Positions 9,234 to 38,333 of a stretch of DNA of 47,308 nucleotides are shown piece by piece. The notes below the pieces were generated by a model. That model made no database searches, had not been told where the DNA came from, and was given only the letters and a program-made list of their open reading frames with translations. Position numbers and translations under genes: made by a program. The stretch is from a virus. Every line of letters starts with the position of its first letter. Within the stretch, counting starts at the first letter, position 1. The stretch is from the IMG/VR virus record IMGVR_UViG_3300028840_001461, positions 1 through 47,308 of that record, one strand, 5' to 3'.

Positions 9234-9538
9234 GGCGACATAAGCACAAATTCAACGCTGTACGGACAGAGAGAGATGGCCTGAACTTCGACAGCAAAAA
9301 GGAGGCGAGATATTACGACCAGCTCAAGCTAAGGGTAGCCAGCGGAGAAGTATTATTCTTCCTGCGCCAGGTTCCTTTCGATTTGCCAGGGAAGGTTAAA
9401 TACCGGTGCGACTTCCAAGAGTTTCACGCTGACGGGACAGTCCACTTCATAGACGTTAAAGGGAAGCAGACAGACGATTTCATCATGAAGAAGAAAATGG
9501 TTGAATCGCTATACCCTGTCGAAATAGAGATTGTTTAA
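9230..9538 (+). CDS. DUF1064 endonuclease-fold protein
   Basis: 102 residues. HKFNAVRTERDGLNFDSKKEARYYDQLK, the FLRQVPFDL strand, Y-RCDF and FIDVKGKQTDDFIMKKKM make the DUF1064 pattern. The E...D..K signature matches a PD-(D/E)xK-like nuclease core. Family members sit where RusA-type resolvases occur in phage genomes, suggesting DNA junction processing. Last gene of the early cluster; converges with the lipase gene, overlapping by 4 bases. Confidence 0.78.
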   Translation: MRRHKHKFNAVRTERDGLNFDSKKEARYYDQLKLRVASGEVLFFLRQVPFDLPGKVKYRCDFQEFHADGTVHFIDVKGKQTDDFIMKKKMVESLYPVEIEIV

Positions 9539-11845: not shown

Positions 11846-13375
11846 TTAATAACCAGCCATAATATCCCTGCCAACATCTCCGCGAGGCATGCTGCTATAG
11901 TCTTGTGGGTGCAAATCCATAATCCTCACGGCATGTCTACGCATAATATAGGCCTTGAAGATTCCATCAATTAAATCATCTTTCACTTTGACAATTTCTG
12001 TTTTCCCGGCACCTTCTTTGTTATTTCCTACAGTTCTTGTGTGATACTGCCTTATTTCCTCAAACACCTCATACAATGGGCTAGCGATTTTAAACCGACC
12101 TTCTTTCATCAGGGAAAATATCTGAGTTATCGCTGGCCAAACAGCAAAACCCCCTTCCTCCCAGGTTGCATGCTCTGGAAGCATATTAAATCCGGCCTCT
12201 TCATATAGCACCCTGATTTCTTTAGCCTCTCCTTGTGATTGCTGTTTGTGGCTGTAGCCATCATGCGGCCACGCCAGCGGTACGTTATCCATCCAGTTTT
12301 TAGTGGTATGCCATATTTCATATGGCTGCTTCTTGCTGCCTTTCCATGCATTGATCAAATAAAATGAATCTGCATCTTTATCCCATAACAACTGAACAAT
12401 AGATGCTGGATGATTCCAACCAAAATCTGAGCCGCCAATTACAAACCAATGATCCGGGTATTCAAATGGTTCAAATTTAATATCATCTTCATCTATCTCA
12501 AATATTAGGCCAGAACCGAGTAGTGGCACTCCTTTACTCCTCATCTTTCTTTGGTATGCTGGATATTGGCCTAATATTTTGCGCTTTGCTTCGTCGTCAA
12601 GGTGCGGACATTGATCCCATGTGGCATTCTGTAGGTACATCCCTGCACTCGCATAATCTTGCTCTTCTTCATCACCCTCAAATACTTCTCCCATAAACTT
12701 GCAAACAAGCTGCGTTTTTCCGTGCTCCGGGGTAAATGTCAAGATAACTTGGCCACCAGCTTTTGTTCCGTTTTCTCCTTTGTTTCCGCCGGTCAATGTT
12801 CTTGTTAAGACCTGCGGGAATATCTCTGAATCTTCTGGTTCTTCATCAATATGCGCGAAATCAACCTCATCCCCCATTAGCGCCTCTTGCCCTTGCTTGT
12901 ACGACCAGAATTGGCATACGGAAACACCAAAAGTATGCCTTACTCTGACTTCGCGCATCGCTCCGGATGTTCCCGTCATCGACTTGTAATCAACTATTAA
13001 ATCGGCAGGAATCAAGCCACCTACAAATTTACCGTTTTCCATTCTACCGAACAGCTTGTTCTGCAATAAGTCGCGAGTTTTCTCCCCTGTATAGCCAAGA
13101 AGCCAACACAAGGGAGGGTGATCAAATTTAATTCCTGGCCAGTCATCAGGATAATCGCCTGTCAAATGATACGCATCAATAATAAGGCCTGTCCTTGTTT
13201 TTCCACACCTGTTGGCAGCCATTAACATACAACTAGAATATTCCTTAGTCGCAGCTATAAACTTCCTCTGCCAATCATAAGCACCGTCATACATCCGCTT
13301 AAGCTTATTCCGCTTACTCCTCTTCACCTCCTCATCAAGGATTTTCAGGTATTCTATATTAGCCTGGCGGTTCAT
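11846..13375 (-). CDS. terL: Terminase large subunit (TerL)
   Basis: 509 residues. ATPase part: AANRCGKT (53-60, Walker A) and FAHIDEEP (173-180, Walker B with catalytic Glu), plus LTFTPEHGK (coupling motif). Nuclease part begins at GGSDFGW (314-320, first metal-binding Asp), with D-rich segments near VKVKDDLIDGIFKAY close to the end. The enzyme packages DNA into proheads and cuts it. It is separated from TerS by about 27 kb. Overlaps the tail protein gene by 17 bases. Confidence 0.95.
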   Translation of the reverse strand: MNRQANIEYLKILDEEVKRSKRNKLKRMYDGAYDWQRKFIAATKEYSSCMLMAANRCGKTRTGLIIDAYHLTGDYPDDWPGIKFDHPPLCWLLGYTGEKTRDLLQNKLFGRMENGKFVGGLIPADLIVDYKSMTGTSGAMREVRVRHTFGVSVCQFWSYKQGQEALMGDEVDFAHIDEEPEDSEIFPQVLTRTLTGGNKGENGTKAGGQVILTFTPEHGKTQLVCKFMGEVFEGDEEEQDYASAGMYLQNATWDQCPHLDDEAKRKILGQYPAYQRKMRSKGVPLLGSGLIFEIDEDDIKFEPFEYPDHWFVIGGSDFGWNHPASIVQLLWDKDADSFYLINAWKGSKKQPYEIWHTTKNWMDNVPLAWPHDGYSHKQQSQGEAKEIRVLYEEAGFNMLPEHATWEEGGFAVWPAITQIFSLMKEGRFKIASPLYEVFEEIRQYHTRTVGNNKEGAGKTEIVKVKDDLIDGIFKAYIMRRHAVRIMDLHPQDYSSMPRGDVGRDIMAGY

Positions 13376-25953: not shown

Positions 25954-26856
25954 TTACTGGCCGCTGCCCCAGGCACATCGTGGGTCAGTGAAGCCATACG
26001 ACTTGTAAAACATCCCCTTGCTTCGGAAGTTTTCAGTCCCAAAATCGTTATCCTGACTGAATGTATAATCCATCCGGTTAAAGATCTTGAACCCATCATC
26101 AACATCAGTGCGGATAAACCACTCAGACGCTGAAGTGAAGCGATGGTTGACGTGATAGCCATTCGGGAAAATGTCATACACGGGGTTAACAGTCGCTGTA
26201 TTAGCGGTGTTAGGCTCGTACATTGACCCAAGGATACGCTCGGCAGTCCAACGAAGCTGACGCGGGATGTGCAACGATTTAGCTTTAGCGCTAATTAACA
26301 GGCCTGCGCCGTCTCGGAAATCCTCAAGTTCTGTCATTGCATCTTCAATCGCGGCTTGCGATAGAGGAGTAAAGACAGTGAATCGGTTAGAGAACGTGCC
26401 GCCCTTGCCCAATACGTGAGCGGTGCTGAACAGGGGCACGCCATCGCCGCCATTAACACTATAAGCGGTATTGATGACATTGGCCGCCAACTGCTCATCG
26501 GTATGAACCAAAGAACGCTTCAGCATTGTGCCTGCTTTCTGGATCAGGTCGCGCTTCAGGTTATTCATCTGGGCTTCCATTGTGATAATGGTGCCTAAAG
26601 AATAAACAGCGTGGGTGTAAGTAGTCGCGAAATCTTGCTTTTCTGCATCGTAAGAGGTGTTATCACCCTCTGGTTTCAAAGATGCAAGGCCAGTTCCTGA
26701 CAAGCTTACATCGACCTCATACGCTTTCTGTGACTGAAAAGTATCGAATATTTTGTCATATTCCATCTCTTTCTCAGCGTATTCGATGGTCGCAATCGCG
26801 TTGATGCCCTCTTGTAATAGGCGGGCTTCAGAGCCTTGAGTTACTATGCTAGCCAT
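25954..26856 (-). CDS. Major capsid protein (HK97-fold, inferred)
   Basis: 300 residues. The N-terminal helix (EARLLQEGINAIATIEYAEKEMEYDKIF), the middle ATTYTHAVYSLGTIITMEAQMN, HVLGKGGTFSNRF, a long helix (AAIEDAMTELEDFRDG) and the C-terminal DNDFGTENFRSKGMFYKSYGFTDPRC have the order seen in HK97-fold coat proteins, particularly Mu gpT-like ones. Position between a head decoration gene and connector genes supports it. The scaffold lies on the far side of the accessory island. Confidence 0.8.
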   Translation of the reverse strand: MASIVTQGSEARLLQEGINAIATIEYAEKEMEYDKIFDTFQSQKAYEVDVSLSGTGLASLKPEGDNTSYDAEKQDFATTYTHAVYSLGTIITMEAQMNNLKRDLIQKAGTMLKRSLVHTDEQLAANVINTAYSVNGGDGVPLFSTAHVLGKGGTFSNRFTVFTPLSQAAIEDAMTELEDFRDGAGLLISAKAKSLHIPRQLRWTAERILGSMYEPNTANTATVNPVYDIFPNGYHVNHRFTSASEWFIRTDVDDGFKIFNRMDYTFSQDNDFGTENFRSKGMFYKSYGFTDPRCAWGSGQ

Positions 26857-26858
26857 GA

Positions 26859-27443
26859 CTAAATCCCCGTCTGGTTAAGGGCTTCTTGAGAAGCGTTGAT
26901 TGAAACCACCCAGTCAGCATTTGTGCCAAGCTCATTCTCTGGCGCGTCATGCACTCGGTGTAGCCGCATATTCAGGGTGCTGGTGCTAGCCGCTGAGTCA
27001 CTATCTAGCTCCATACCAGAGACCCCTGTCACTGCGTTCCCGGAACCAACGACCACATTAATGTTCAAGCCTGCCTCGGTGATCTCGATATCGTTACCTA
27101 CAGAATCTTCCTGACAGGTATAAAGCACATCTTGACCCCAATACACAAAAGCATCACGCGCTGTTGAAGCTAATCGGTGGTTGGTGGTTAGCGTACCTTC
27201 ATCAGTAAAATCTGGCAGGAATGAAGCAATAACGCCAATAGAGGCGTCTCCGGCAGCTGATTGAGCTACAACAGGCTTTGTTCCGGTTGCGTCAGCGGTC
27301 CCAGTAAGCTTTACTAAGTCACCTACAAAGCAAGCAACTGAATCGCCAGCGGCAAATGTTACGCGGCGTAGTTTCCCGTGAAAATCAGCACCAGACAAGG
27401 TGCCGATTGGTGTTAGACCTGCTGGTCTATCTGCATTGGCCAT
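26859..27443 (-). CDS. Capsid decoration or accessory head protein
   Basis: 194 residues, beta rich, starting MANADRPAGLTPIG and with KLTGTADATGTKPVVAQSAAGDASIGVIASF, typical of DUF2190-like or decoration-type capsid proteins encoded right before the major capsid gene. AAAGGAGGCTATT gives a very strong ribosome binding site. The first ~18 bases of the gene have a copy at about 27532-27549. Confidence 0.7.
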   Translation of the reverse strand: MANADRPAGLTPIGTLSGADFHGKLRRVTFAAGDSVACFVGDLVKLTGTADATGTKPVVAQSAAGDASIGVIASFLPDFTDEGTLTTNHRLASTARDAFVYWGQDVLYTCQEDSVGNDIEITEAGLNINVVVGSGNAVTGVSGMELDSDSAASTSTLNMRLHRVHDAPENELGTNADWVVSINASQEALNQTGI

Positions 27444-27677: not shown

Positions 27678-27809
27678 ATGGCAACGTTAATTAAATGCGT
27701 AATTTGCGGAAAGAAGAAGTGGTCCAGGGCTGATGCTCTAACGTGCTCAGGTAAATGCAGAACCAAAAAATGCAGGAGGGATAAGAAAAATGGTTTACGA
27801 ACTTTATGA
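27678..27809 (+). CDS. 43-residue zinc-finger-like peptide
   Basis: MATLIKCVICGKKKW, then CSGKCRTKKC: two Cys pairs in a very basic peptide, probably zinc binding. It overlaps the start of the PAPS-reductase-like gene by 20 bases and so is translated next to it. Function unknown. Confidence 0.62.
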   Translation: MATLIKCVICGKKKWSRADALTCSGKCRTKKCRRDKKNGLRTL

Positions 27810-28641
27810 CAACGAACCATACCTAATAAGCTTTAGTGGCGGCCGATCCTCTGGCTATATGCTCCATAATTTGCTTGAAGCAAACAACGGACTACCGGGG
27901 CAAGCCTATGTTTTATTTGCCAACACTGGAAAAGAAATGCCGGAAACACTGGACTTTGTAGCAGAGTGCGCAGAGCGGTGGCGCGTCAATATCATCTGGC
28001 TAGAACACTGTTATGGCGATGATGGAAAAGTCTCTTTTAGGGTCGTTAACCGCGACACGGCATCGATGAACGGAGAGCCATTCGAGGAGTTGATAGGTAA
28101 GAAACATATGCTCCCAAATGTTGTTACTCGCTTTTGCACTGAAGAACTAAAAATTAACCCCATGTTTAGATACATGCGATCAATTGGAATAAAGAAAAAG
28201 AACCTAACCGATGTGATCGGCATCAGGTATGACGAGCCGCGACGGGTGGCAAAGATGCGCGCCAGGAACGAAGTAGAAAAATTCGAAACAATCGCGCCTT
28301 TGGCTGAAGCAAAAGTTGATAAATACGAAGTTGGCTCTTTTTGGAAAGCTCAGCCATTCGATTTAAAGCTAGACAACAACAACGGTACAACACCTCTAGG
28401 CAATTGTGATCTCTGCTTCTTGAAAGGAGAGAAAAAAATAAGCTCAATTATTCGCGATCATCCATATCTGGCTGAATGGTGGTTTCAACAAGAGGACAGG
28501 ATACAAAAAGGCTGTAGAGACGCTGGCGGGAATATTGAAAATGCCAGTTTTATAAAGCGCATTCCTTACCGAGCTCTGCCTGGCGCAAACATAGACGACC
28601 TGCTAAACATAGAGATTGAGTGCCTTGGCTGTACCGATTAA
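27790..28641 (+). CDS. PAPS-reductase-family (PP-loop) protein
   Basis: 283 residues. LISFSGGRSSGYML contains the PP-loop (SGGRSS, 16-21) that binds ATP or PAPS; then FANTGKEMPETLDFVAEC, RFCTEELKINPMF, GIRYDEPRRVAKMR and GNCDLCFLKG near the C-terminal third. GGAGGG precedes the ATG. Phage members of this family are common but their reaction is often untested: sulfur transfer to nucleic acid or sulfonucleotide reduction. It lies at the island start and is not followed by an attC. Confidence 0.82.
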   Translation: MVYELYDNEPYLISFSGGRSSGYMLHNLLEANNGLPGQAYVLFANTGKEMPETLDFVAECAERWRVNIIWLEHCYGDDGKVSFRVVNRDTASMNGEPFEELIGKKHMLPNVVTRFCTEELKINPMFRYMRSIGIKKKNLTDVIGIRYDEPRRVAKMRARNEVEKFETIAPLAEAKVDKYEVGSFWKAQPFDLKLDNNNGTTPLGNCDLCFLKGEKKISSIIRDHPYLAEWWFQQEDRIQKGCRDAGGNIENASFIKRIPYRALPGANIDDLLNIEIECLGCTD

Positions 28642-28703
28642 TCTAGTCGCCCAACGTTCTGCTGTTCTAAGTGCAGGGTTTATCAGTGGAGAAAGGACAA
28701 GAA

Positions 28704-28907
28704 ATGAATGATCTGAATAAAACTATCTATATAAGCACAGAAGTAGGCGTTGGCGGGCATGAGCCGGGAGTAGATGGCGAGGTTACCAATCCTGTGCACA
28801 ATTACGAGGATGCTAAAAAGCTTGCTGAGCATTTTGAAAAGCATGGAATATCGGCAAAGATAAAGAATACGGGAGACACTGAATGTGAACAGCACCACAA
28901 CACCTGA
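28704..28907 (+). CDS. Small cassette protein of unknown function
   Basis: 67 residues from an ATG with GAGAAAGGA upstream. MNDLNKTIYISTEVGVGGHE, NYEDAKKLAEHFEKHGISAKI: a short alpha/beta protein. First gene after the PAPS-reductase-like gene and overlapping the next gene by 23 bases. No family recognised. Confidence 0.6.
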   Translation: MNDLNKTIYISTEVGVGGHEPGVDGEVTNPVHNYEDAKKLAEHFEKHGISAKIKNTGDTECEQHHNT

Positions 28908-29160
28908 AACAAACACCGAGGAAGGCGGTCTGGTTGAGCCGCTTGTTATATGCGCGTTTAGAGAGCTTAGGGAGAAATGGTTTAATGCTAAATTGAAGCG
29001 ATTTGCCCATGAGCGAGAATGGGAAGAAGAGTGGCAGACTGAATCAAGAGAAGAGGAAAACAGAGGGCTTAAGGTGATATTTGATAAGCAAACCGAGGAG
29101 ATTATCGCTGGCAATGCTGCGCCAATAGCGCCGACATGCTCCCACGATATGAGCATATAA
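28885..29160 (+). CDS. Acidic cassette protein of unknown function
   Basis: 91 residues from a GTG start preceded by GGGAGA. VICAFRELREKWFNAKLKRFAHEREWEEEW and EIIAGNAAPIAPTCSHDM; central part is a charged helix. The stop is in the first 7-mer of the attC at 29155-29216. Function unknown. Confidence 0.6.
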   Translation: MNSTTTPETNTEEGGLVEPLVICAFRELREKWFNAKLKRFAHEREWEEEWQTESREEENRGLKVIFDKQTEEIIAGNAAPIAPTCSHDMSI

Positions 29161-29216
29161 CGCAAAGATAACCCGCCGGACTGAACAAAGTGAACGTGTT
29201 AATCGACTTGTTATAA
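29155..29216 (+). other. attC recombination site (array B)
   Basis: Starts (C)ATATAAC and ends GTTATAA, 62 bp. Arms GAT-AACCCG and GATTAACACG (after reverse complement) pair with one bulged base. It contains the stop of gene 28885-29160. Confidence 0.72.
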
Positions 29217-29242
29217 GTCAGTAACTAACCAAGGAGGCCGAG

Positions 29243-29428
29243 ATGAATGGGTTCAGTTGGATTATAATTTTAGCAGCATTGGTATTCGTATTGTTGTATT
29301 TAATTGGTACAGATAAGAATGAAAAGATAGCTAAAGTAACTAGTAATTGCAGTCCTACAAGTCTTGTAATTATCGCCAGCAACGGAGACCCTGTGAGAGT
29401 TTATGACTGCTCTGAAGCTGGCTTATAA
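29243..29428 (+). CDS. Single-span membrane peptide, cassette-borne
   Basis: 61 residues with an N-terminal hydrophobic segment (SWIIILAALVFVLLYLIG) then a soluble part with two cysteines. AAGGAGG precedes the ATG. The stop is in the first 7-mer of the attC at 29423-29545. Membrane peptide of unknown role. Confidence 0.66.
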   Translation: MNGFSWIIILAALVFVLLYLIGTDKNEKIAKVTSNCSPTSLVIIASNGDPVRVYDCSEAGL

Positions 29429-29545
29429 CGAACAGCTTGAGGGGCTTGCGGCCACTCAAAACTTAAAGGTAACGACATGAACACTGAAGCTGGACAAAAC
29501 CAAGGAACGTCGCGGACGCAAGTCCATTCTAAGCAATTGTTAGGT
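29423..29545 (+). other. Long attC site with embedded translation start (array B)
   Basis: TTATAAC ... GTTAGGT, 123 bp. After reverse complement the right arm shares GCTT...GG.CTTGCG.CC with the left arm, with extra bases. The loop holds AAAGG and the ATG at 29477 for the next gene. Confidence 0.75.
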
Positions 29546-29722
29546 GTTGATTGGTTTGGCTATGAATTACTTAAACCAAGTAAATATCCACCTAATTTTA
29601 TTCCGCGAGGCGCTACGCCTGTTATTGGCATTGACCAAGGCTCACCAGATGGTGATTGCACTTGCAGAGGGTTTTATAAGGATGGTGTTTTTCATGTTCA
29701 GGAGGTTAAGCACAATGATTAG
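29477..29722 (+). CDS. Cassette protein with attC-encoded N-terminus
   Basis: 81 residues from the ATG at 29477 inside the attC at 29423-29545. The first ~23 residues (MNTEAGQNQGTSRTQVHSKQ...) are encoded by the attC. The body, FGYELLKPSKYPP, GIDQGSPDGDCTCRGFYKDG and FHVQEVKH, looks like a small soluble protein. The stop overlaps the next gene by 8 bases. No family recognised. Confidence 0.62.
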   Translation: MNTEAGQNQGTSRTQVHSKQLLGVDWFGYELLKPSKYPPNFIPRGATPVIGIDQGSPDGDCTCRGFYKDGVFHVQEVKHND

Positions 29723-29903
29723 CGGAAAAGAACTTTTGATAGGGATTATTTGCGGAATCGTTGGGATGGTTTTGTCTGGACTTGCTGCTGCATTCATTAG
29801 CAATCACCAAGATATCGCGCCGGTTGCAACGCACTTGATGTCTGGCTCATTCGCCACATTGGGCGCACTTGCCGGTGTAGCAATGGCCCGGATAGACACC
29901 TAA
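29715..29903 (+). CDS. Two-span small membrane protein, cassette-borne
   Basis: 62 residues. Hydrophobic segments at about 5-27 (LLIGIICGIVGMVLSGLAAAF) and 42-58 (SFATLGALAGVAMARI). Holin-like in length, but with no lysis context. GGAGG precedes the ATG. Stop in the attC at 29898-29971. Confidence 0.62.
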   Translation: MISGKELLIGIICGIVGMVLSGLAAAFISNHQDIAPVATHLMSGSFATLGALAGVAMARIDT

Positions 29904-29971
29904 CGCCCCGCATCAGCTGGACGCAACAAGCGCCAGCGCAGTTGCGGATCGGCTGAATGCGATTGTTATAC
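29898..29971 (+). other. attC recombination site (array B)
   Basis: ACCTAAC (perfect RYYYAAC) to GTTATAC, 74 bp. Outer arms CGCAT-CAGC and CGCATTCAGC (after reverse complement) pair with one extra base, plus an inner CGCAAC/GTTGCG stem. Confidence 0.9.
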
Positions 29972-29991
29972 GTGCCTTATGGAGAGGTTAA

Positions 29992-30366
29992 ATGCTAATA
30001 CGTTGTTGTGGATGCGAAAAGAAAGTTGACGCCAGGCTGACTGATGGAGGTGAAATATACCCTCATAGACCTGATTTAAAGTCACTTCCGTTTTGGAAGT
30101 GTGACGCTTGCGGGAATTACGTTGGGTGCCACCATAAAACCAAGAATAGAACGCAGCCGCTTGGGTGCATTCCTACGCCTGAGATTAAGAATGCAAGACA
30201 GCATATTCATAAATTGCTAGATCCTATCTGGCAATCTGGGAAAATGAAACGAAAAGAAATTTACAAGATTTTAAGCGATAGATTGGGCTGGAAATATCAC
30301 ACGGCCAACATACGGAGCGTTGAAGAAGCACGTGAGGTTTACCGCATAATTCAAGAGCACGTATAA
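29992..30366 (+). CDS. DUF3268-like zinc-finger protein, cassette-borne
   Basis: 124 residues. IRCCGCEKKVDARL, GGEIYPHRPDLKSLPFWKCDACGNYVGCHHKT and RTQPLGCIPTPEIKNARQHIHKLLDPIW follow the conserved DUF3268 layout: zinc Cys pairs, YPHR..L...FW.C..C..YVGCH, then PLG..A. C-terminal helices (MKRKEIYKILSDRLGW) are typical of the family. Biochemical role unknown. Ends in the attC at 30361-30420. Confidence 0.75.
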   Translation: MLIRCCGCEKKVDARLTDGGEIYPHRPDLKSLPFWKCDACGNYVGCHHKTKNRTQPLGCIPTPEIKNARQHIHKLLDPIWQSGKMKRKEIYKILSDRLGWKYHTANIRSVEEAREVYRIIQEHV

Positions 30367-30420
30367 CGCCAGCGATTAGCGGCAACGCTTTTTGTTGTCC
30401 GCTAGATTGCATTGTTATAC
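30361..30420 (+). other. attC recombination site (array B)
   Basis: GTATAAC to GTTATAC, 60 bp, with the ends perfectly complementary. Inner arms pair imperfectly (GCAACGC, GCGATTAGC against GCTAGATTGC). It contains the stop codon of gene 29992-30366. Confidence 0.9.
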
Positions 30421-30441
30421 CGCACAACTAAGGAGCTAGAA

Positions 30442-31002
30442 TTGACAAATAAATATAAAACGATTATTGCTGATCCGCCATGGAGGTATGGAAAGTGGGG
30501 TGTAGCTACGCCCGAAAGCAGGCCAAACGGCAAGCAATACGATATGCCATACGAAACCATGACCATTTCCGAAATTGCCGCGCTTCCAGTTGCCGCCATG
30601 GCTGCGGAGAATTGCGACCTGTACCTGTGGACCACGCAGAAGTATTTGCCGCAAGCGTTTGATGTGCTGAAGGCGTGGGGATTCAGGTATTGCCAGACCC
30701 TGACATGGTGCAAGGCACCACGCGGAACCGGCCAGGGTGGCTTGTACTGCCCCACAAATGAATTTTTGATACTTGGGCGCAAGGGCAGGATGCCAACCGG
30801 AAAAACGCGCAAGGATTCAACGTGGTGGAAAGTGAAGCGACCGCACAACCAGCATAGCAAGAAGCCAGAGTTCTTCCAGGATATGATAGAGCAACAGAGC
30901 GATGGCCCACGGGTTGAGCTGTTTGCCCGCAGACCCCGTGAAGGTTGGGACGTGTGGGGGAATGAGGTTGAATGCACTGCCGAACTACCTGGCGCGGTAT
31001 AA
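30442..31002 (+). CDS. MT-A70-family adenine methyltransferase, cassette-borne
   Basis: 186 residues from a TTG at 30442 with AAGGAG 6 bases upstream; an ATG further upstream lies inside the attC. The catalytic DPPW is at residues 11-14 (KTIIADPPWRYGKWG). Later: CDLYLWTTQKYLPQAFDVL, QTLTWCKAPRGTG, GTGQGGLYCPTNEFLILGRK (SAM-fold strands), and FARRPREGWDVWGNEV. It would methylate adenine N6 in DNA, which could protect phage DNA from restriction. It is a one-gene cassette. Confidence 0.88.
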   Translation: MTNKYKTIIADPPWRYGKWGVATPESRPNGKQYDMPYETMTISEIAALPVAAMAAENCDLYLWTTQKYLPQAFDVLKAWGFRYCQTLTWCKAPRGTGQGGLYCPTNEFLILGRKGRMPTGKTRKDSTWWKVKRPHNQHSKKPEFFQDMIEQQSDGPRVELFARRPREGWDVWGNEVECTAELPGAV

Positions 31003-31067
31003 CGGTTGCCATAAGCCGACGCGAAGCCGCAACGCGGCAAGCGGTCGGTTTGATGGCTTGGTTATAC
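30997..31067 (+). other. attC recombination site (array B)
   Basis: GTATAAC to GTTATAC, 71 bp. Arms GCCAT-AAGCCGAC and GCCATCAAACCGAC (after reverse complement) pair with an extra base. Contains the stop of the methyltransferase gene. Confidence 0.92.
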
Positions 31068-31091
31068 GGCACTTTCTCCGGTGCTTAAATT

Positions 31092-31146
31092 AACTGCAAT
31101 TAAATGCAGTTTAACGCTTGACATGCTGCAATATATTGCATATAAT
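31092..31146 (+). promoter_or_regulatory. Strong promoter with palindromic operator inside a cassette
   Basis: TTGACA (31118-31123), spacer of exactly 17, TATAAT (31141-31146): a consensus sigma-70 promoter. The spacer contains a perfect 14-base palindrome TGCAATATATTGCA (31127-31140). A second perfect inverted repeat, AACTGCA-N6-TGCAGTT (31092-31111), lies just upstream. This arrangement suggests repression by a dimeric protein. Confidence 0.85.
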
Positions 31147-31183
31147 TATTACCAAGTTAAGGCAAATAACAACGGAGAGAGAG

Positions 31184-31438
31184 ATGGGAAGAATTGTTTT
31201 TAAAGCTAAAGTTAAAACAGCTACTTCTGGACGTGAATATATAAGCGTGCCAAAAACGGTTAAAAAAGAACATTTTTTCGGTGAGCATCGATCTAGCAAT
31301 ACCAGTATTTTCGAGGAAATATTAAAGCGTGAATTAACTATCGCGATCGGGAAAACCAAGATGATTTATTTAGATAGCTTGCCTCATAAGGTTAGTATTT
31401 CAGGCGATTTTATGAAAACAGTGGTGGTGGAGATATGA
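31184..31438 (+). CDS. First gene of a promoter-bearing cassette
   Basis: 84 residues from the ATG at 31184 with GGAGAGAGAG upstream. Basic, beta-rich start: MGRIVFKAKVKTATSGREYI, then VPKTVKKEHFFGEHRSSNTS. It ends overlapping the next gene by 4 bases. It could be a DNA-binding (AbrB- or MazE-like) antitoxin, but this is a guess from size and beta pattern. Confidence 0.65.
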   Translation: MGRIVFKAKVKTATSGREYISVPKTVKKEHFFGEHRSSNTSIFEEILKRELTIAIGKTKMIYLDSLPHKVSISGDFMKTVVVEI

Positions 31439-31647
31439 AGTACGGAGATGTTAGCGAAAATGATTTCATGCCGCACTGGAACGAGATTCAAAAGCTTGCG
31501 TATAAGAATGCCTATGAATGCGTTTCAGGGAATCCTTTCCCGCCAGGTAGCGCTGAGGCGGTAGAGTATAGGCGCTTCTATTCTTCAACTAGGGACGAGA
31601 TATTAGAGGCTATCGAATCGGGAGAGATTGGAGTGGTTTTTAAATGA
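31435..31647 (+). CDS. Second gene of the promoter-bearing cassette
   Basis: 70 residues: GDVSENDFMPHWNEIQKLAY, a helical acidic protein ending DEILEAIESGEIGVVFK. Coupled to the genes on both sides (ATGA overlaps). The pair could be a toxin-antitoxin unit, suggested by promoter, size and order only. No family recognised. Confidence 0.65.
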   Translation: MKYGDVSENDFMPHWNEIQKLAYKNAYECVSGNPFPPGSAEAVEYRRFYSSTRDEILEAIESGEIGVVFK

Positions 31648-31808
31648 GTATTAAAGAAAACCTGAAAGCTAAAGGCTACACCAGAGACGAAATAAAAGCC
31701 CGCTGGGGCATCAAGGAACGCCAATACTACAACGTGCTAGCCAATCCTAAACAGATCCACGTCGACGCGGTTAACGGCCTGCCACGGAAAAAGAAGGGTG
31801 CCGTATAA
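31644..31808 (+). CDS. 54-residue HTH-like protein in the promoter-bearing cassette
   Basis: MSIKENLKAKGYTRDEIKAR, then WGIKERQYYNVLANPKQIHVD, a helix-turn-helix-like motif (K..GYT..EIKARWGI..RQYYNV). Possibly the regulator acting on the palindrome at 31127-31140. ATGA overlap with the previous gene. The stop is in the attC at 31803-31936. Confidence 0.6.
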   Translation: MSIKENLKAKGYTRDEIKARWGIKERQYYNVLANPKQIHVDAVNGLPRKKKGAV

Positions 31809-31936
31809 CGTCGCAATTAACCGGACCGCCGAGAACGAAGCTACGGAGATAAAGACTATGACACAGCAAGCAGAAACCACGCAATCAGAATCAAACGCCG
31901 CGTTAGGCGGGTCCGAGTTGAATTGCTTTGTTAGGC
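31803..31936 (+). other. Long attC site with embedded translation start (array B)
   Basis: GTATAAC ... GTTAGGC, 134 bp. Left arm TAACGTCGCAATTAACCGGACC pairs with the right arm after reverse complement (TAACAAAGCAATTCAACTCGG followed by ACC), with three bulged bases. The loop holds GGAG and the ATG at 31858. Confidence 0.92.
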
Positions 31937-32034
31937 ACGATGATTGCACTGATGGATGTTGTTTGCATGGTGTTGGATGGGATGAGCCATGTTACGACTG
32001 TGAACCTGAGCTTATACCAGAAGCATCACTTTGA
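31858..32034 (+). CDS. Cys-rich cassette protein with attC-encoded N-terminus
   Basis: 58 residues from the ATG inside the attC at 31803-31936. The first ~26 residues (MTQQAETTQSESNAALGGSE...) are encoded by the attC. The body CFVRHDDCTDGCCLHGVGWD, then CYDCEPEL has six Cys and two His and probably binds zinc. GGAG precedes the ATG. No family recognised. Confidence 0.6.
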   Translation: MTQQAETTQSESNAALGGSELNCFVRHDDCTDGCCLHGVGWDEPCYDCEPELIPEASL

Positions 32035-32047
32035 GGAGATTAGGAAA

Positions 32048-32242
32048 ATGTTTGAGAATTACATGAATGACACGTTTCAACCATTGCATGGGCAGTTGCT
32101 GTATCGCGTTGTTTTATCTGCCGAAGATGGCCGATATACGCTACAAAACGGCTTTAATAGCGAAGCCAGCGCGATCAGGTACGCAAAGAACAAAGATCAT
32201 GAATACGGCGAAGGTCAACACCTTTACGTCGAATCTTACTAA
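32048..32242 (+). CDS. Small cassette-region protein of unknown function
   Basis: 64 residues from the ATG at 32048 with GGAGATTAG upstream; a longer frame through the attC end is less likely. FQPLHGQLLYRVVLSAEDG and ASAIRYAKNKDHEYGEGQH. A short alpha/beta protein of unknown role. It has no attC before it, so it may share the cassette of gene 31858-32034. Confidence 0.6.
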   Translation: MFENYMNDTFQPLHGQLLYRVVLSAEDGRYTLQNGFNSEASAIRYAKNKDHEYGEGQHLYVESY

Positions 32243-32261
32243 CAACAGGAGAAAAAATATT

Positions 32262-32378
32262 ATGAAACATAAAAAACGTTATGCAGCTTGGGGTCACGAT
32301 GGTAGTTTCCGTTTTAAATGGCATCGCGATTTATGGGCATGGTGGAACCGCAAACAATACGGCAAGCCTGGTGCCTAA
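32262..32378 (+). CDS. 38-residue basic Trp-rich peptide
   Basis: MKHKKRYAAWGHDGSFRFKW, then HRDLWAWWNRKQYGKPGA. Basic and Trp-rich. AGGAG sits about 11 bases upstream of the ATG. The stop TAA is part of GCCTAAC, the 7-mer that opens the 117-bp repeat. Could bind nucleic acid or membrane. Confidence 0.55.
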   Translation: MKHKKRYAAWGHDGSFRFKWHRDLWAWWNRKQYGKPGA

Positions 32379-32492
32379 CATAGGGTTAGACCCCAAAGTG
32401 GGGTGTATTAAATGCACCCCTCAAGCTAATAGAATCATAGGCTTAACCCCTGATTTTGTCCGATATTATCCATATTAGGGCAAAAAAAGACA
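32376..32492 (+). repeat. 117-bp repeat, copy 1 (inverted partner at 47052-47168)
   Basis: Matches the reverse complement of 47052-47168 over 117 bases with 2 mismatches (at 32472 and 32483) and no gaps. It starts right after a gene stop, as does the other copy. Internal hairpins ACCCC-AAAGT-GGGGT and GGGGTG-N9-CACCCC. The 5' end with the preceding bases reads GCCTAAC-N5-GTTAGAC, a simple-site-like pair. No terminal inverted repeats or transposase are seen. Confidence 0.9.
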
Positions 32493-32533
32493 CTAAGTAA
32501 TAAACCTATTATCGGGCGGGTGAGGTTTTGATT

Positions 32534-32740
32534 ATGGCCTTAATGAAGCTAGACACATTCAAAAAGCGGTTTGTCGACGGGGATGCTCCAGACACCCGAA
32601 CCGTAATAAATTGGAACAGGCCAAAAAGATTGGCTTTTCAAGTTCCAATGTTATGCCAGCTAACAACAGAATATACAGACCGTGCAAGCTCAGGCTATAA
32701 GCATCAATTAAGCCGCACAGTGTTTAGCTGTGCGGCTTAA
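32534..32740 (+). pseudogene. Possible truncated excisionase-like HTH gene
   Basis: MALMKLDTFKKRFVDGDAPD, then TRTVINW, resembles the start of small phage excisionase or AlpA-type proteins (short helix, then W). After the INW the frame loses resemblance and runs into the terminator hairpin. It may be a frameshifted or truncated relic, or chance. It lies between the repeat and the terminator. Confidence 0.3.
32708..32740. terminator. Strong hairpin between plus and minus genes
   Basis: TTAAGCCGCACAG (32708-32720), loop of 7, CTGTGCGGCTTAA (32728-32740): a perfect 13-bp stem. It lies between array B (plus) and the end of gene 32749-33288 (minus), so a bidirectional terminator is likely. Confidence 0.7.
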
Positions 32741-32748
32741 TCAGCGAT

Positions 32749-33288
32749 CTAAGCGTCGTGCGTTATCTCTAAGCCTTTATCACCGCCAGCAGTGGTCAAT
32801 GGGGCGTACGTTTTCAATCCTTTGACTCCAGGCATAACACTAGCCTCCGTGTTTGCCACGCCGATCTTCATTGACTGGAGAATGGCCTCGTTCTTATCCA
32901 CGTTCGGCTGTATTCGGTACTTATGGTAGTCGTCCTTATCCATAAACAGCAGGTAGTTACGGATCGGGTTACCAGCCTTGTCCTTGTCAACAACCTTAGA
33001 TTCCCACTCACCTGTCACTTGGTCGTTTATGCCTTTAAAGATCTTGGCTGACTTCGAACGGCGTGGAACAGGTTGAGCCCCAAGCGACAGCATGCGATCA
33101 ACCTCTCCATGCTCATCAGAGCAATAGAACAAAGTCTTATCCTTGTACTCTGGCAGGGTTAGGTAATAACTAGGATCAAGTACCGGCTGCTTCCCTGTCG
33201 CAGCCCGGATCTTGTCTTTCTCAGACATTTTATTAACGTCATCCTGTGCACCTATTTCAGGTCTAATATCTTTGTTTTGCTTTTTCAT
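32749..33288 (-). CDS. Head-region structural protein of unknown role
   Basis: 179 residues: basic N-terminus, then YYLTLPEYKDKTLFYCSDEHGEVDRM and GEWESKVVDKDKAGNPIRNYLL, FMDKDDYHKYRI. No catalytic motif. Its start overlaps the scaffold gene by 4 bases. It is the last minus gene before the accessory island and would normally precede the capsid genes. Confidence 0.65.
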   Translation of the reverse strand: MKKQNKDIRPEIGAQDDVNKMSEKDKIRAATGKQPVLDPSYYLTLPEYKDKTLFYCSDEHGEVDRMLSLGAQPVPRRSKSAKIFKGINDQVTGEWESKVVDKDKAGNPIRNYLLFMDKDDYHKYRIQPNVDKNEAILQSMKIGVANTEASVMPGVKGLKTYAPLTTAGGDKGLEITHDA

Positions 33289-34202
33289 GCTTCACCTAGC
33301 AATTGTGCTGCGAATTCTTCGGCCTTTTTAGGGTTGATATCTTTCAGCATGTTGTAAACATCAGTAGCTGGGTCTTTGTCGTTCGGGTTCATGCTGTTAG
33401 CACCTAGCCCTTTTAACCGTGCCTTAAGGTCTGGGGCTGGCGTGGCTTTTTTCTTTGCTGCTGGAGTTGAACTGCGCGTGTTCTTTGGAGATGTGAACTT
33501 GTCCTGGTGGAGACCCTTGGCTTCCCGATAGGCCAGATCAAGAGAGCGCTGTATTTGATTCGGTGTTAACGCAGCTATTTTTTCAGGCATACCACCTGTC
33601 AGCTTATCGAGGATCGTGCCCTGCATCATCGCCATGTCGCTGTGAAATTCTTTGTCGAATTGCGGGCTGTTAGGATCAATGATCGGGAACTTGCTTTGAA
33701 ACTCAACAAGAACCGGGTTAGGGGTATAAGCAGGCTCGTCGGTCTTCTGGGTTTTAGCGTTCAGTGCTGTTATCTCACGCTCAGCCTTCAGTGCAGCAGC
33801 AACATCTTCTTCTTCTTCGGCCTTGGCTAGCTGTGCCTTGGCCTCGGCGATAGCGGCAGCAACACGCTCATTCTCCTGCGCTCTCTGCGTCTCTTTCCAT
33901 GAGGCCATACCGTCAGCAATAGATGACACGGAATCCTTCAGGCTTCGGATCTCCTGCAGGGAATCGTAATGGTCTTTGTAAGCCTCTTCTCCACGGAACT
34001 TTTTAGGGTCTTTTCCAGCGGCAACCCATTCCTCGTAGTTCATAAAGCCGGGAGGGCTTTCCTCCTGGGTTTCTTCCTGGGTTTCTTCCTCGCCTTCTAA
34101 CTCGGCCTTAGCCTTAATATCTTCTTGAGACACTTCCTCATCTTCAGGAAGCTTGTCTTCTATATCATCCAGTACCTTATCCATATCTTCTTGATTAGAC
34201 AT
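33285..34202 (-). CDS. Scaffolding protein
   Basis: 305 residues, very acidic at the N-terminus (KLPEDEEVSQEDIKAKAELE), with long helices (AKAQLAKAEEEEDVAAALKA) and a basic, Pro/Lys-rich part near residue 240, ending in an amphipathic helix. Composition and place between portal and capsid genes are typical for scaffolds that are removed from the prohead. Overlaps neighbours by 4-8 bases. Confidence 0.75.
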   Translation of the reverse strand: MSNQEDMDKVLDDIEDKLPEDEEVSQEDIKAKAELEGEEETQEETQEESPPGFMNYEEWVAAGKDPKKFRGEEAYKDHYDSLQEIRSLKDSVSSIADGMASWKETQRAQENERVAAAIAEAKAQLAKAEEEEDVAAALKAEREITALNAKTQKTDEPAYTPNPVLVEFQSKFPIIDPNSPQFDKEFHSDMAMMQGTILDKLTGGMPEKIAALTPNQIQRSLDLAYREAKGLHQDKFTSPKNTRSSTPAAKKKATPAPDLKARLKGLGANSMNPNDKDPATDVYNMLKDINPKKAEEFAAQLLGEA

Positions 34203-34602
34203 TCTTAGTCACCATTTTACCTAACACGCTTTCATCGTTAACGAACCTATGCTTGTCTCCACTTCCAGGAGGCAAGTCCATTTCCACTCCGGCATACCGA
34301 TCAAACAGGATGACATCACCCACTTCAATCCAGGGCTTACCACCCAGCTGCTCGGTTTTATAGGCAAAGTCTCCAACATGTACAACCAGCCCATGGAAAG
34401 TGCCTTTAGATTCGCGCTCTTTTTGGTTCGCAGTCTTCACCTCAAAACCAGCCTTGCCCAAGGTCTCATACTTCTGTTCCTCGGATGCTTCCAATGTAGT
34501 TACGGCTTCAATCGGCTTGATTAAAATCCTATACCCCACTGCTTCGGGGTTTCCGTTTGCAATAAGGTCTCTTGCCTTACTGAGATCTTCTTCTGATACC
34601 AT
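34195..34602 (-). CDS. GroES-like co-chaperonin
   Basis: 135 residues. VGYRILIKPIE (first strand), SKGTFHGLVVHVGDFAY (65-81), WIEVGDVILFDRYAGVEMDL and FVNDESVLGKM at the end follow the GroES order. The stretch at about residues 35-62 is in the place of the mobile loop that binds GroEL and is unlike the host form. T4 gp31 and similar phage co-chaperonins replace GroES for folding their capsid protein. Position in the head cluster supports this. Confidence 0.85.
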   Translation of the reverse strand: MVSEEDLSKARDLIANGNPEAVGYRILIKPIEAVTTLEASEEQKYETLGKAGFEVKTANQKERESKGTFHGLVVHVGDFAYKTEQLGGKPWIEVGDVILFDRYAGVEMDLPPGSGDKHRFVNDESVLGKMVTKNV

Positions 34603-34610
34603 GCTTTCTC

Positions 34611-34871
34611 CTAGTGGTTATAAACTAACTTAACAGTTTCTTCCTGTTCTCTTAGAGTGACCAGCACCTTTTCGAGATCTTCCCCGTTTGGTACCTCTTC
34701 CCACTCATCGTTGTGCAAGACAATCTTTAGCGAACCAGTCTCCATGTCATTGCTCTTTGCAATAATAGAAGTCCCTTCTGGCAATGAATCCATCAATGCA
34801 GACTCAAACTTTTTGCCGTGAGTCGCTATCTCATGCATGCTCAACAGTGCTAATTTAAGTTTCCTATTCAT
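34611..34871 (-). CDS. Small phage protein of unknown function
   Basis: 86 residues: helical start LKLALLSMHEIATHGKKFES, then a beta-rich acidic part (TGSLKIVLHNDEWEEVPNGE). Overlaps the next gene by 4 bases (ATGA). No family recognised; part of the portal-scaffold operon. Confidence 0.6.
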   Translation of the reverse strand: MNRKLKLALLSMHEIATHGKKFESALMDSLPEGTSIIAKSNDMETGSLKIVLHNDEWEEVPNGEDLEKVLVTLREQEETVKLVYNH

Positions 34872-35173
34872 ATTTCCTCTGGTTCGTTTTTGAATTCAGG
34901 CATTTCAATAACGGCTTCAGGATCCAGCATCTCATGGCGTCTAAGCTCATCCTGCACAGCTAAAGCGCTCATGTATCCCTGTTTCTTACCCTCAGTTATA
35001 ACGGTCTTGGAGAATGTCTCTTCCATACTGGCAAGATTAATACCCGCCCCGTTACCCAATGCCTCCCTGAGCTGGTCCTGGCTCCACCATAGGCACTGTA
35101 GGTAGGTTCTTGTTACCGGGTCCTTGAGCCATAGCTCCACCTGGTCCTGGGATAGCTGGTTGTAATTTGTCAT
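34868..35173 (-). CDS. Small phage protein of unknown function
   Basis: 101 residues, helical: QDQVELWLKDPVTRTYLQCL and SMEETFSKTVITEGKKQGYM, like small proteins located after portal genes in several phages. Its place suggests an assembly or virion role, but nothing more can be seen. Confidence 0.62.
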   Translation of the reverse strand: MTNYNQLSQDQVELWLKDPVTRTYLQCLWWSQDQLREALGNGAGINLASMEETFSKTVITEGKKQGYMSALAVQDELRRHEMLDPEAVIEMPEFKNEPEEI

Positions 35174-35176
35174 AAT

Positions 35177-36175
35177 TCATTTTGTTGATATTGGTTTGGT
35201 TGTAAGTCCTGGCAGTACAAGGGTTGCGATGCCTGTTTCGTCTCGCATCTCCACAGCGTCATACCCCAAATTCTTTGCTGTCTGTCCTCTGATCCTCTGA
35301 GCCTCCCACGATGCCTCTGCGGGGTCTGTCTCACGGAAAAACTTATACAGTTCATCTTCATCAAGGCTGAATATATCGCTACTACTATCTTCGGATATGT
35401 AAGGGTATATTTCGTCTATATCAGCATCATCTAGCCATGGCGTTGATTTTTTTATAGCCTTCTTAGCTTCATCATAATCAATATCATAATCAAACATCTG
35501 ATGAGTTAGTATTTTTTCTTTATCCAGAACAACTTCATGTCTGCTAGGACCATACATCCCACCTTCCGTTCCTGCAAAAATACCCCCAAACTTACCTTCA
35601 TCTTTAACTGTTATTGGGCTGGCCTCATGAGTGTCATGAAACAATAGCACCTTCCTGTCTTCTGGAATATCTACATCCCTGCTTACAATGTCTTTAGCCT
35701 TTTCTACTATTTTAGAAGCCCCGGACGGCAAAGAAGTGACCAGCCCGAGCGCTATCATCCCTACTCCGCTGATATCGCCGCGTTCAAAAGCCTCGTGTGC
35801 CTCTGCTGCAGATTGCAAATCGCCTAATATAGGCGATGCCGACATAGCCTCTCTAGCTATATCGCCAGCAGTAATTCCGGGGCTCCCAGTAACCTTGTCT
35901 GGGTAAGGCGAGTAATCCATAAAATTGCTTAAAGCATCTCTAACAGCCCCGATAGGGTTGGCCCTAAGTGCAAGAGTTTTAAATATTTTTCTATTGTCTG
36001 CGTCAGTTAATATTTTATCCGCCTCAGAAATGACTTGGTAAGGATTATCGCTCTTTATTGTGTACAGGCTTCTTATTTGGGAGAACTTGTCATCTAGAAT
36101 CTTTTTCGCTTCTTTCGACCCCCCAGAAAATACTCTAGGCTTCTCCTCCCCATCAACATAAACAGTGACCCCCAT
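35177..36175 (-). CDS. ADP-ribosyltransferase-like domain protein (tentative)
   Basis: 332 residues. The C-terminal half begins KVLLFHDTHEASPITV, then GKFGGIFAGTEGGMYG, and ends NLGYDAVEMRDETGIATLVL. This resembles the ADP-ribosyltransferase-like domain of phage polyvalent proteins (F.HgT, GGiFf, lGYDgv). The N-terminal half is helical without clear match. It lies between portal and scaffold genes and could be injected as a host-modifying enzyme or act in the virion. The catalytic R/H-S-E pattern is not fully traceable. Confidence 0.5.
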   Translation of the reverse strand: MGVTVYVDGEEKPRVFSGGSKEAKKILDDKFSQIRSLYTIKSDNPYQVISEADKILTDADNRKIFKTLALRANPIGAVRDALSNFMDYSPYPDKVTGSPGITAGDIAREAMSASPILGDLQSAAEAHEAFERGDISGVGMIALGLVTSLPSGASKIVEKAKDIVSRDVDIPEDRKVLLFHDTHEASPITVKDEGKFGGIFAGTEGGMYGPSRHEVVLDKEKILTHQMFDYDIDYDEAKKAIKKSTPWLDDADIDEIYPYISEDSSSDIFSLDEDELYKFFRETDPAEASWEAQRIRGQTAKNLGYDAVEMRDETGIATLVLPGLTTKPISTK

Positions 36176-36176
36176 A

Positions 36177-38333
36177 CTAAAGACCTCTTTTCGTCATGGT
36201 GCTAGTAAGAGGGTTGTAATTATATTCAGTCTCACCATTCAATAAGTTTGCAGGGTTATTTTTTGAATCAATAAACTGATCCTCTATTTGCGCTGCACTT
36301 TGAACGGCTTGTTCATAGGCCATACCCATATCGACTAAATCTTTTAGGGACTGGGTGTACAGCCTTGTGATCTCGGCTTCCTGCTTGTCGGCCGATAATC
36401 CTAATTCTGACATTTCTCTTGCGGCTTGCATGGCGGAGCGTTGCTGTTCGAGCTGCAGCTTCATACCTTTAAACTGAATCTCTTGAGCGCGTAAATCCTG
36501 ATCGCGCTTCTGCATTTCCATAGCCGCCATCTGCTGGGCGAGAATCATCTCCTGCATTGGATCTTTTGCGTTAGGATCTGGCTCAGGGGCGAGCTCTTCT
36601 ATGCCGGTAGTCTTCATGGCCTTAAGAACGTCAATCACAGCCTTACGGTAGTTAAGTACTTGTCCTGGCTGTTGCGGGTCTTTGGCCATCTCAAAAACAA
36701 CCTGGGCGCGCTGTACCCGCTCTATATCAGATCCTTGGCTTGGGTCAGCTACCATGCGAATATCGAAATCATCAGGGTTAAAGTCCTTCTCCATCGATAC
36801 CGTGGTTTGAGTATCAAGTACTTTGTTGTACTTCTCATCATCAAAATGGCGATAGTTAAGCAGGGCCATCTTCTGAAGCTCTTGCTTACAGCAATCATAA
36901 ACCCGCATGACAATGGCGTTAGGCACCTTGAGTGCTTGCTGGAGCCTTGCTAGGTACAGGCTTGCGGCCTCCCCTGGTTGAGCCTCTGCATTAACGGTGG
37001 CATTGGTCATTGATCGGGCCGATGAAACCAGATACTCCATGAGCTGGAATAGAACCGTGTTAGGCCCGGCAAACGGTAACTGGACAATGCCATCTCTGAG
37101 CGGTCCGCTCCCATTTGTTTCGATAGGTGTTAGTTGGCCCATAACTATCTCAACCGGACCAGACTTAACCGCATTGCCACGGGCAGAGGTTAATTGTTTG
37201 GATATCAGGCCAGAGTTAGCTGACGTAATAGAAAGGGTTCCTGCGTCAATTAGTTGGCGAACGTTAGTGTTGATAGATTCAAACATTGGCCCCAGTAGTA
37301 TTCCCCAGCCTAGCCCCATTGGCCCGCCTTCAGGGTCTGGGATAAACCGATACTGTGTCAGGCTATCAACTGGCACAACCTTAACGATCTCGCCTTCGTC
37401 ATTCATGTGAACCGTGTCGTCGTCATAACGAGGGTATAGGCACACGATCTTTTCTGAATCTCGATAGATAGTGGCAATGTACGGCTCTTTTAGCCCGTCG
37501 TCGTCCAGGTCTATCCATGTTTCCGCGTGGATGAATTCCAGCTCTTCGGCATCTTCTTCAAGTTCATCTTCGGATAAGTCCCATTTCTGACTGCCGCGAA
37601 TGTATCCAATAACTTGATTGCGGGTGTAGGTTTCCACTCTGAAACGATCCGGTGCTTCCTCAAATGTGGCGTAGGCATGGTTGAATATTACTTGGTCAGC
37701 GAGCAGCAAGTCTGAATCAAGGCCCTGCTCTTCGTAACAGAAGAATGAGCGCTTGTAGAACGTCCCGATGATGGGCAAGATCATTAGGCCTTTGTCCTGG
37801 TCAGATCGCCACGATGGAATACCATCAATCAGCTGGGCGTTCGTATAATCAGCAACCCGCTTCGCCCTGTCTTCCTTTTCTTTCGTGTTCTCGCCATAGA
37901 CCTTGGCATGCGCAATTTCGTTAGACCACGCTATCTCCGGGGCTGCTCTTGAGTTGAAATCTAAGGCTGCCTCAAGGATGAATGGCATCATTGTCAGGCT
38001 GGCACCTTCGAAGGGGAAGGTTTTATGCTCGATATCTTTGCCATTGGCAGTAGGCTGAAGCTTGGCCAGGCTTAACGCCTTCTTGTACTTCTTGAGCCAT
38101 GGCTGCATCGACGCCAGAGCTTCATCGTACAGGCTGATAATCTTCTGCGCGGTTCCGCCGTTGTCGCTCAGCTCATCGACTATATTTCCCTCATCAAGAT
38201 ATTTGATCAGAGGAGAAGGTTCGTCTGGCTCCTCGTATGGCTCAACCGCATCAGTTAGCAGTGGAGTTTCCTCTAATGGCAGGGCTGGCTCCATACCGGG
38301 CATTCCCGCAGGCTCTTGATTGTATTCAGGCAT
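36177..38333 (-). CDS. Portal protein
   Basis: 718 residues, size and motifs of large portal proteins of podo-like phages: KDIEHKTFPFEGASLTMMPF, IAWSNEIAHAKVYGEN, ETWIDLDDDGLKEPYIATIY, GGPMGLGWGILLGPMFESIN, and a Gln-rich coiled-coil tail (AQQMAAMEMQKRDQDLRAQE). Forms the dodecamer at the head vertex for DNA passage. Start shares a base with the stop of the small upstream gene. Confidence 0.88.
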   Translation of the reverse strand: MPEYNQEPAGMPGMEPALPLEETPLLTDAVEPYEEPDEPSPLIKYLDEGNIVDELSDNGGTAQKIISLYDEALASMQPWLKKYKKALSLAKLQPTANGKDIEHKTFPFEGASLTMMPFILEAALDFNSRAAPEIAWSNEIAHAKVYGENTKEKEDRAKRVADYTNAQLIDGIPSWRSDQDKGLMILPIIGTFYKRSFFCYEEQGLDSDLLLADQVIFNHAYATFEEAPDRFRVETYTRNQVIGYIRGSQKWDLSEDELEEDAEELEFIHAETWIDLDDDGLKEPYIATIYRDSEKIVCLYPRYDDDTVHMNDEGEIVKVVPVDSLTQYRFIPDPEGGPMGLGWGILLGPMFESINTNVRQLIDAGTLSITSANSGLISKQLTSARGNAVKSGPVEIVMGQLTPIETNGSGPLRDGIVQLPFAGPNTVLFQLMEYLVSSARSMTNATVNAEAQPGEAASLYLARLQQALKVPNAIVMRVYDCCKQELQKMALLNYRHFDDEKYNKVLDTQTTVSMEKDFNPDDFDIRMVADPSQGSDIERVQRAQVVFEMAKDPQQPGQVLNYRKAVIDVLKAMKTTGIEELAPEPDPNAKDPMQEMILAQQMAAMEMQKRDQDLRAQEIQFKGMKLQLEQQRSAMQAAREMSELGLSADKQEAEITRLYTQSLKDLVDMGMAYEQAVQSAAQIEDQFIDSKNNPANLLNGETEYNYNPLTSTMTKRGL

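Follow-up and report, generated by a model that had tools for sequence, protein, structure and literature searches.

The question raised by this locus is why a phage carries a GroES-like gene of its own among its head genes, and with which partner the product of this gene acts. The window, which is the whole stretch of DNA that was analysed, is 47,308 bases long and represents an entire viral record. The most probable answer is that its product is a GroES-family co-chaperonin of the phage that is made with the head proteins and serves as a lid for host GroEL. According to this answer, the co-chaperonin would be produced together with the head proteins, would assemble into a heptameric lid and would cap host GroEL, and at least one of the head-module proteins would fold in the cage. 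For docking on GroEL, the flexible G-G-I-V-L loop would be replaced by a longer loop that is helical in part and contains an invariant Leu-x4-Phe pair. The locus is important because a phage GroES is firmly tied here to one widespread head type with a small capsid protein, so that the cage-size explanation given for T4 cannot be the general reason for phage lids. In addition, the rebuilt and conserved loop is a naturally occurring alternative to a chaperone contact that is among the best studied, and the related phages with the canonical loop provide matched controls for loop swaps.

The GroES-like gene and its predicted fold

The Cpn10/GroES-like co-chaperonin gene is located at 34195-34602 on the minus strand and encodes a protein of 135 residues, as judged from its open reading frame, its profile matches and its predicted fold. 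The reading frame given for it in the preliminary description is real and its ends are exact. The strand had been left unstated; it is the minus strand, and the plus strand of 34195-34602 contains stop codons in frame 1. A Shine-Dalgarno-like AGGAG at 34608-34612 (minus strand) ends five bases ahead of the start codon, and the 3' end of the gene shares 8 bases with the start of the 305-aa gene that follows. The protein matches PF00166 (Cpn10) with an E value of 3.4e-5 and a score of 24.2 bits, which is above the curated cut-off of 21.1, and PHROG 3188 'co-chaperonin GroES' with an E value of 1.5e-8. The gene is the sole Cpn10 match in the window. The Pfam alignment covers residues 67-129 only (profile positions 33-92), so that the half of the protein that contains the mobile loop lies outside the Pfam match.

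The best AlphaFold2 model of the protein has a mean pLDDT of 90.8, and the other four models range from 84.4 to 78.8. The top matches of the best model in Foldseek and VIA-align are Cpn10/GroES chains. The best Foldseek E value is 2.7e-6. Of the 30 matches with an E value of 0.001 or below, 29 are chains 75-108 residues long that belong to GroES/Cpn10 entries, and the remaining one is a Cpn20 chain. In VIA-align, the best Cpn10 chain gives a Z score of 11.2 with an rmsd of 2.5 over 72 residues. The Z scores of the GroES chains range from 9.4 to 11.2, whereas those of dehydrogenases, which contain a GroES-like domain, are 7.2 and below. The body strands and the C-terminal strand of GroES are predicted to be kept in the protein, and residues 78-92 align at the roof position, where the model has no assigned strands. 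As far as the model can be trusted, the window protein is a Cpn10 family homologue with the GroES beta-barrel fold. The Cpn10 profile, PHROG 3188 and the comparison of the model with the PDB thus bear out the identification of a phage-encoded GroES-like protein. Its likening to T4 gp31 also holds, in the sense that a phage GroES homologue with the fold of gp31 is predicted. T4 gp31 in complex with GroEL (2cgt_O) aligns with the model with a Z score of 10.1 and an rmsd of 1.8 over 72 residues, and the gp31 chain 1g31_A with a Z score of 9.0 and an rmsd of 6.5 over 87 residues. These scores do not distinguish gp31 from other GroES chains.

The sequence and structure matches also include the Cpn11, Cpn20 and Cpn23 chains of the ClpP complex 7ekq, which indicate that a protein with the Cpn10 fold is able to occupy a ring other than that of a chaperonin. 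The phage protein might accordingly be a lid for another barrel, such as host ClpP protease, as the Cpn10/Cpn20 chains are on chloroplast ClpP. However, the 7ekq chains rank under GroES in the structure search and show the shared fold only, and the relatives of the phage protein have GroEL-type loops. We consider this role very improbable.

The head module and its linkage to GroES

The minus-strand genes are arranged in the order portal, 332-aa, 101-aa, 86-aa, GroES, 305-aa, 179-aa, 194-aa and major capsid protein (MCP), with a plus-strand cassette between the 179-aa and 194-aa genes. The portal protein (718 aa, 36177-38333, minus strand) has homologues annotated as head to tail connecting protein or portal protein. 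Next in order are a 332-aa protein (35177-36175; phrog_11282, function unknown), a 101-aa protein (34868-35173, minus strand) that is kept upstream of GroES in the long-loop clade described below, and an 86-aa protein (34611-34871, minus strand; phrog_20473). Downstream of GroES are a 305-aa protein (33285-34202), a 179-aa protein (32749-33288) that is kept in the long-loop relatives, a 194-aa protein (26859-27443; phrog_37556) and the MCP (300 aa, 33.4 kDa, 25954-26856; phrog_133/371), all on the minus strand. The HTVC023P-like order, in which portal, small genes, GroES, a scaffold-like gene, two genes and MCP follow one another on one strand, is found in the window. The presence of the portal upstream and the MCP downstream agrees with the head operon proposed in the preliminary description, although the cassette breaks this block between GroES and MCP. 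A sequence search of the PDB with the MCP profile gave no match.

GroES had also been described as lying beside the scaffold. This is correct for the position, but not for the family identity, because the 305-aa protein of the window matched no family in the PHROG and Pfam profile searches. Eight of the 14 members of its family match phrog_28737, which has no function, one member weakly matches a tape-measure family and one matches another unnamed family. No scaffold family was therefore found for this neighbour. The 305-aa protein is acidic (pI 4.64), and its position, acidity and length suggest that it is scaffold-like.

Several other features of the window were observed. The cassette (27790-32740) encodes PAPS reductase (PF01507, phrog_424) and a DUF3268 zinc-finger protein, and among 51 sources (the window and L001-L050) these two genes are found in the window and L018 only. 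Among the 51 sources, the 332-aa protein is detected by phmmer only in the window and in its own excerpt, L001. A perfect sigma-70 consensus (TTGACA, 17, TATAAT) is located at 31118-31146 on the plus strand inside the cassette; promoter-like sites in total are no more numerous than expected from shuffling. The large terminase gene is located at 11846-13375, ~23 kb downstream of the portal gene, and is directly upstream of the portal gene in eight long-loop relatives (L020, L027, L029, L038, L040, L041, L042 and L048). The phage also has a gene for a class 3 lipase (PF01764, 2.1e-18) at 9535-10242.

When the window GroES was the only query, no relative was found among viral contigs. Loci were recruited from viral contigs, genome contigs and phage records with the MCP as bait. 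From one list of 111 loci and another of at least 598, the best 80 of each were retained, and for this reason the linkage counts lean towards near relatives. Seven loci were initially fetched via a GroES match (L002-L004) or via the portal (L005-L007 and L009), and all seven are also in the MCP list. Among the recruited loci, with the window included, GroES is encoded upstream of the MCP on the same strand in 133 of the 138 in which the MCP is preceded by 3.5 kb or more, and in 119 of the 123 with at least 4.5 kb. The median gap between GroES and MCP is 2,111 bases. When the loci are clustered at 90% MCP identity, 113 of the 115 clusters have GroES in at least one member. Upstream GroES is absent from five of the 138 loci (L016, L018, L069, L083 and L113). 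In L018, which is closely related to the window, the cassette shifts the position where GroES would be expected beyond the contig end. L069 and L083 have relatives with GroES in their clusters. The clusters of L113 and L016 have no other member, and a Cpn10 match is present elsewhere in the record of L016. These five loci count against a strict linkage of GroES to the head module. The genome loci L113, L069 and L083 have the MCP without upstream GroES in 10.0, 3.8 and 4.9 kb, respectively.

The MCP search matches 21 phage records. Cpn10 is detected over the cut-off in all 15 distinct MCP-family phage records tested, and a scaffold-sized gene is in the scaffold position after GroES in 13 of them. 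GroES is located before the terminase in vir526, and elsewhere, as a partial match, in MW202601. The former (L015) is a virus assigned to Methanomicrobiales, in which groS precedes the terminase and the MCP is a distant member of the same family. GroES is present in five of the remaining six of the 21 records, with MW202604 left out of the check. The Cpn10 profile matches 28 of 33 records; among the five others, L023 and L028 carry GroES according to the profile built here, and L018, L032 and L035 are fragments whose ends fall short of the GroES position. For background, E. coli GroES matches 89 of 50,697 phage records by tblastn, some of them plainly bacterial, and these figures are not like for like with the linkage figures because tblastn is less sensitive than a profile. 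GroES belongs to a widespread head module, in which it is nearly always present. In the available parts of open-licence full texts, no paper was recognisable as dealing with a general linkage of GroES to a head module in phages. Jumbo phage records (H45-H53, H56, H58, H59, H61 and H62, e.g. Pectobacterium phage CBB) have two places that match E. coli GroES, and often one of the pair is annotated as co-chaperonin and the other as hypothetical.

The remodelled mobile loop

The preliminary description of a divergent region at the mobile loop is correct, because the canonical motif is absent from residues 31-67. This remodelled and lengthened region, which was delimited by alignment and model, is encoded at 34402-34512 on the minus strand. 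In place of a loop of the K-T-x-G-G-I-V-L type, the window protein and 20 distinct relatives (23 rows, including two duplicates) have one that is ~13 residues longer. The segment between strands 1 and 2 is 55-61 residues long in this long-loop set in the alignment, and 41-45 residues long in 121 of 160 rows, which include E. coli and the long-loop rows. The K-T-x-G-G-hydrophobic motif is carried by many rows of the phage relatives. The loops were classed by length, because a regular expression for canonical loops, which gave 103 of 160 rows, was too strict, missed plain cases and mis-flagged the long-loop L048. Long-loop GroES was not found among the best 80 of 111 genome loci.

The consensus of the long loop is L-E-x-A-E-x-E-x-x-x-T-L-A-x-A-G-F-x-x-K-T-x-x-Q-x-E-R-E-x-x-G. 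According to the alignment of the 21 sequences, L48 (codon 34459-34461, minus strand), F53 (codon 34444-34446, minus strand) and G67 are invariant in all of them, and G52 is present in 18. F53 aligns with the first residue of I-V-L of E. coli GroES, and the two positions after it vary (Q/V/E/T/I, then A/V/T/D/I/M). The hydrophobic contact of the G-G-I-V-L type is thus not kept, except for its first position, and this counts against the proposed lid for GroEL. The conservation of the loop core (residues 47-57, 2.75 bits) is similar to that of strand 70-77 (2.71 bits); the values are 2.23 bits for the roof segment, 1.80 bits for the N-terminal extension and, on average, 2.28 bits for the whole loop (residues 31-66).

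A Cpn10 match at an E value of up to 0.1 is detected in 19 of the 21 members of the long-loop clade, with some below the cut-off; among the viral records of the clade, the match is below the cut-off in G004, G018 and G005, and none is detected in G003 and G006. These weak and missing matches also count against the lid reading. The Pfam score of the window protein is weak and near the cut-off, as might be expected if an acquired groES were decaying and its loop had drifted. However, the frame is open and has a good ribosome-binding site, and the gene and its new loop motif, with the three invariant residues, are kept in 20 distinct relatives. Decay of the gene is hardly credible.

The model of the window protein has predicted helices at residues 39-44, 46-51 and 58-66 of the loop region. 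Only the last of these three is present in a control model of the canonical-loop relative L188 (mean pLDDT 84.8), for which the alignment had the same number of rows as that for the window model. The L-x3-G-F sequence looks like a helix cap. It is possible, though rather less likely than the lid function itself, that docking on GroEL is altered, such that a longer, ordered helical loop inserts the Leu-x4-Phe pair into the groove that GroEL helices H and I form, much as a substrate helix would. If so, the lid may be held higher, host GroES may be locked out, or a divergent GroEL may be matched. Phage GroES lids have been known before, and the conserved rebuilding of the part expected to grip the barrel appears to be the new aspect. 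The remodelled loop itself also appears new, in that no paper was recognisable as being on a remodelled phage GroES loop in those parts of open-licence full texts that were accessible.

A quick-search MCP tree of 114 rows gives full support to a single origin of the long loop, and 85 of the 114 rows pair with a GroES with a canonical-length loop. Rows left out of this tree are L061 and L149 (misaligned), L137 (empty), the duplicates L033 and L036, and the loci above L149. The 85 rows with canonical-length loops indicate that this capsid fold can do without a remodelled loop. The GroES of Alcaligenes phage vB_Af_QDWS535 and those of L056, L058, L132 and L143 have an insertion just before the hydrophobic contact, as does the window protein, but a shorter one (loop segment of 50-52 residues, as compared with 55-61). 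This class accounts for five of the eight intermediate-length rows, and two canonical-length rows sit within its branch in the 114-row tree. A careful tree of 60 rows, from which L013, L015, L116 and most canonical rows were left out, rejects a single group made up of the long-loop rows and the five QDWS535-like ones (p-AU 0.0076). The test is weakened because the grouping was picked after the first tree. The QDWS535-like branch seems to have acquired its similar insertion independently. If GroES and MCP have a common history, the loop before the GroEL contact appears to have been lengthened on two or more occasions.

The loss of the GroEL-contact tripeptide, with a different motif being highly conserved, and the location of the gene between the portal and a scaffold-like gene are also consistent with a repurposed GroES fold. 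In this case, the protein would not bind GroEL but would act in head assembly or as a structural protein, and bind portal, scaffold or capsid through its loop. We consider this unlikely. Most relatives at the same place with homologous capsid proteins have a canonical-length loop, as counted above, and their ancestral role was therefore probably that of a co-chaperonin. In addition, the body strands and the C-terminal strand are predicted to be retained, and F53 still aligns with the canonical hydrophobic contact.

The probable GroEL partner and comparison with known systems

In bacteria, GroES closes the barrel in which proteins fold, GroEL (Cpn60). The window has no Cpn60 match, and Cpn60 is detected in none of 34 phage records, of which 19 are viral contigs and possibly fragments. 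The lysogen genomes of Zavarzinia marina, Salinisphaera hydrothermalis and two Phenylobacterium each contain a single Cpn60, which lies next to a high-scoring Cpn10; a further, divergent Cpn10 is found inside the presumed prophage (phage on a long contig). In a fifth genome, that of L113, the only Cpn10 is the one beside its Cpn60. In L219 (Phenylobacterium sp. J367), a second, frame-broken prophage copy of Cpn10 is located near the contig start. As these phage records yielded no GroEL, the phage lid has to work with that of the host unless its role is a different one, and the single Cpn60 of each lysogen genome suggests that it presumably uses host GroEL. Assignment of the host from metagenome-assembled genomes was rejected, because identical MCPs are found in Colwellia and Hyphomicrobiales assemblies (L052 and L053), which indicates that binning is unsafe.

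The usual reason given for gp31 is that T4 gp23 (~56 kDa) slightly exceeds the GroEL-GroES cage, according to the accessible part of PMC6318259, and an excerpt of PMC3012670 adds that subtler features may also set the specificity of gp31. The GroEL-GroES cage takes ~60 kDa according to an excerpt of PMC5780408. The preliminary description suggested a capsid protein that cannot rely on host GroES for its folding, and for this phage that suggestion is a hypothesis. The capsid protein is 33.4 kDa here, as compared with 56 kDa for gp23, so that size is not a sufficient reason for a phage lid. The cage-size explanation for T4 does not carry over to this head type, and supply, timing or specificity are better guesses. 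When SAR11 is infected by HTVC027P or HTVC022P, the downregulated host genes are primarily transporters, chaperones and folding catalysts, as stated in the available text of PMC12753301. By analogy, downregulation of host chaperones is a possible reason for the phage's own lid, but this downregulation is common to both phages in that text, which is a point against it.

The nearest known arrangement is that of the HTVC023P group (HTVC023P, HTVC027P, 023Pt_psg01, DSL-LC04, CRP-901/902, Pag-Yong1 and Caulobacter phage RLK). As in the window, GroES precedes a scaffold-sized gene, after which come two more genes and a homologous MCP; Cpn60 was not found. The portal is located shortly before GroES in this group, as in the window, but further away in CRP-901/902. 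The available part of PMC9599517 counts a GroES co-chaperonin among the 13 core genes of HTVC023P-type phages, and a figure legend in PMC10149686 names GroES in a comparison of CRP-901-type phages, whereas neither GroES nor chaperones are mentioned in the accessible portion of the main text of PMC10611076. Unlike that of the window, the loop of the HTVC023P group is canonical (K-T-K-G-G-I-V-L type) and ~13 residues shorter.

T4 gp31 is a phage co-chaperonin with the GroES fold, as the window protein is predicted to be. The mobile loop of gp31 is longer than that of GroES (22 versus 16 residues; PMC6318259, in part), and the loop is longer than that of GroES in the window protein as well. In contrast, gp31 has no roof loops according to the same excerpt, whereas the window protein has a segment at the roof position, and gp31 is not among the 18 PDB sequences matched by the phage GroES profile. 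RB49 CocO is also a phage co-chaperonin of the GroES fold, and is likened here by its published description only, as given in part of PMC3012670. The window protein has the predicted beta-barrel fold and the C-terminal half in common with bacterial GroES/Cpn10, but differs from it in having a predicted N-terminal helix and a rebuilt loop that lacks the canonical I-V-L contact.
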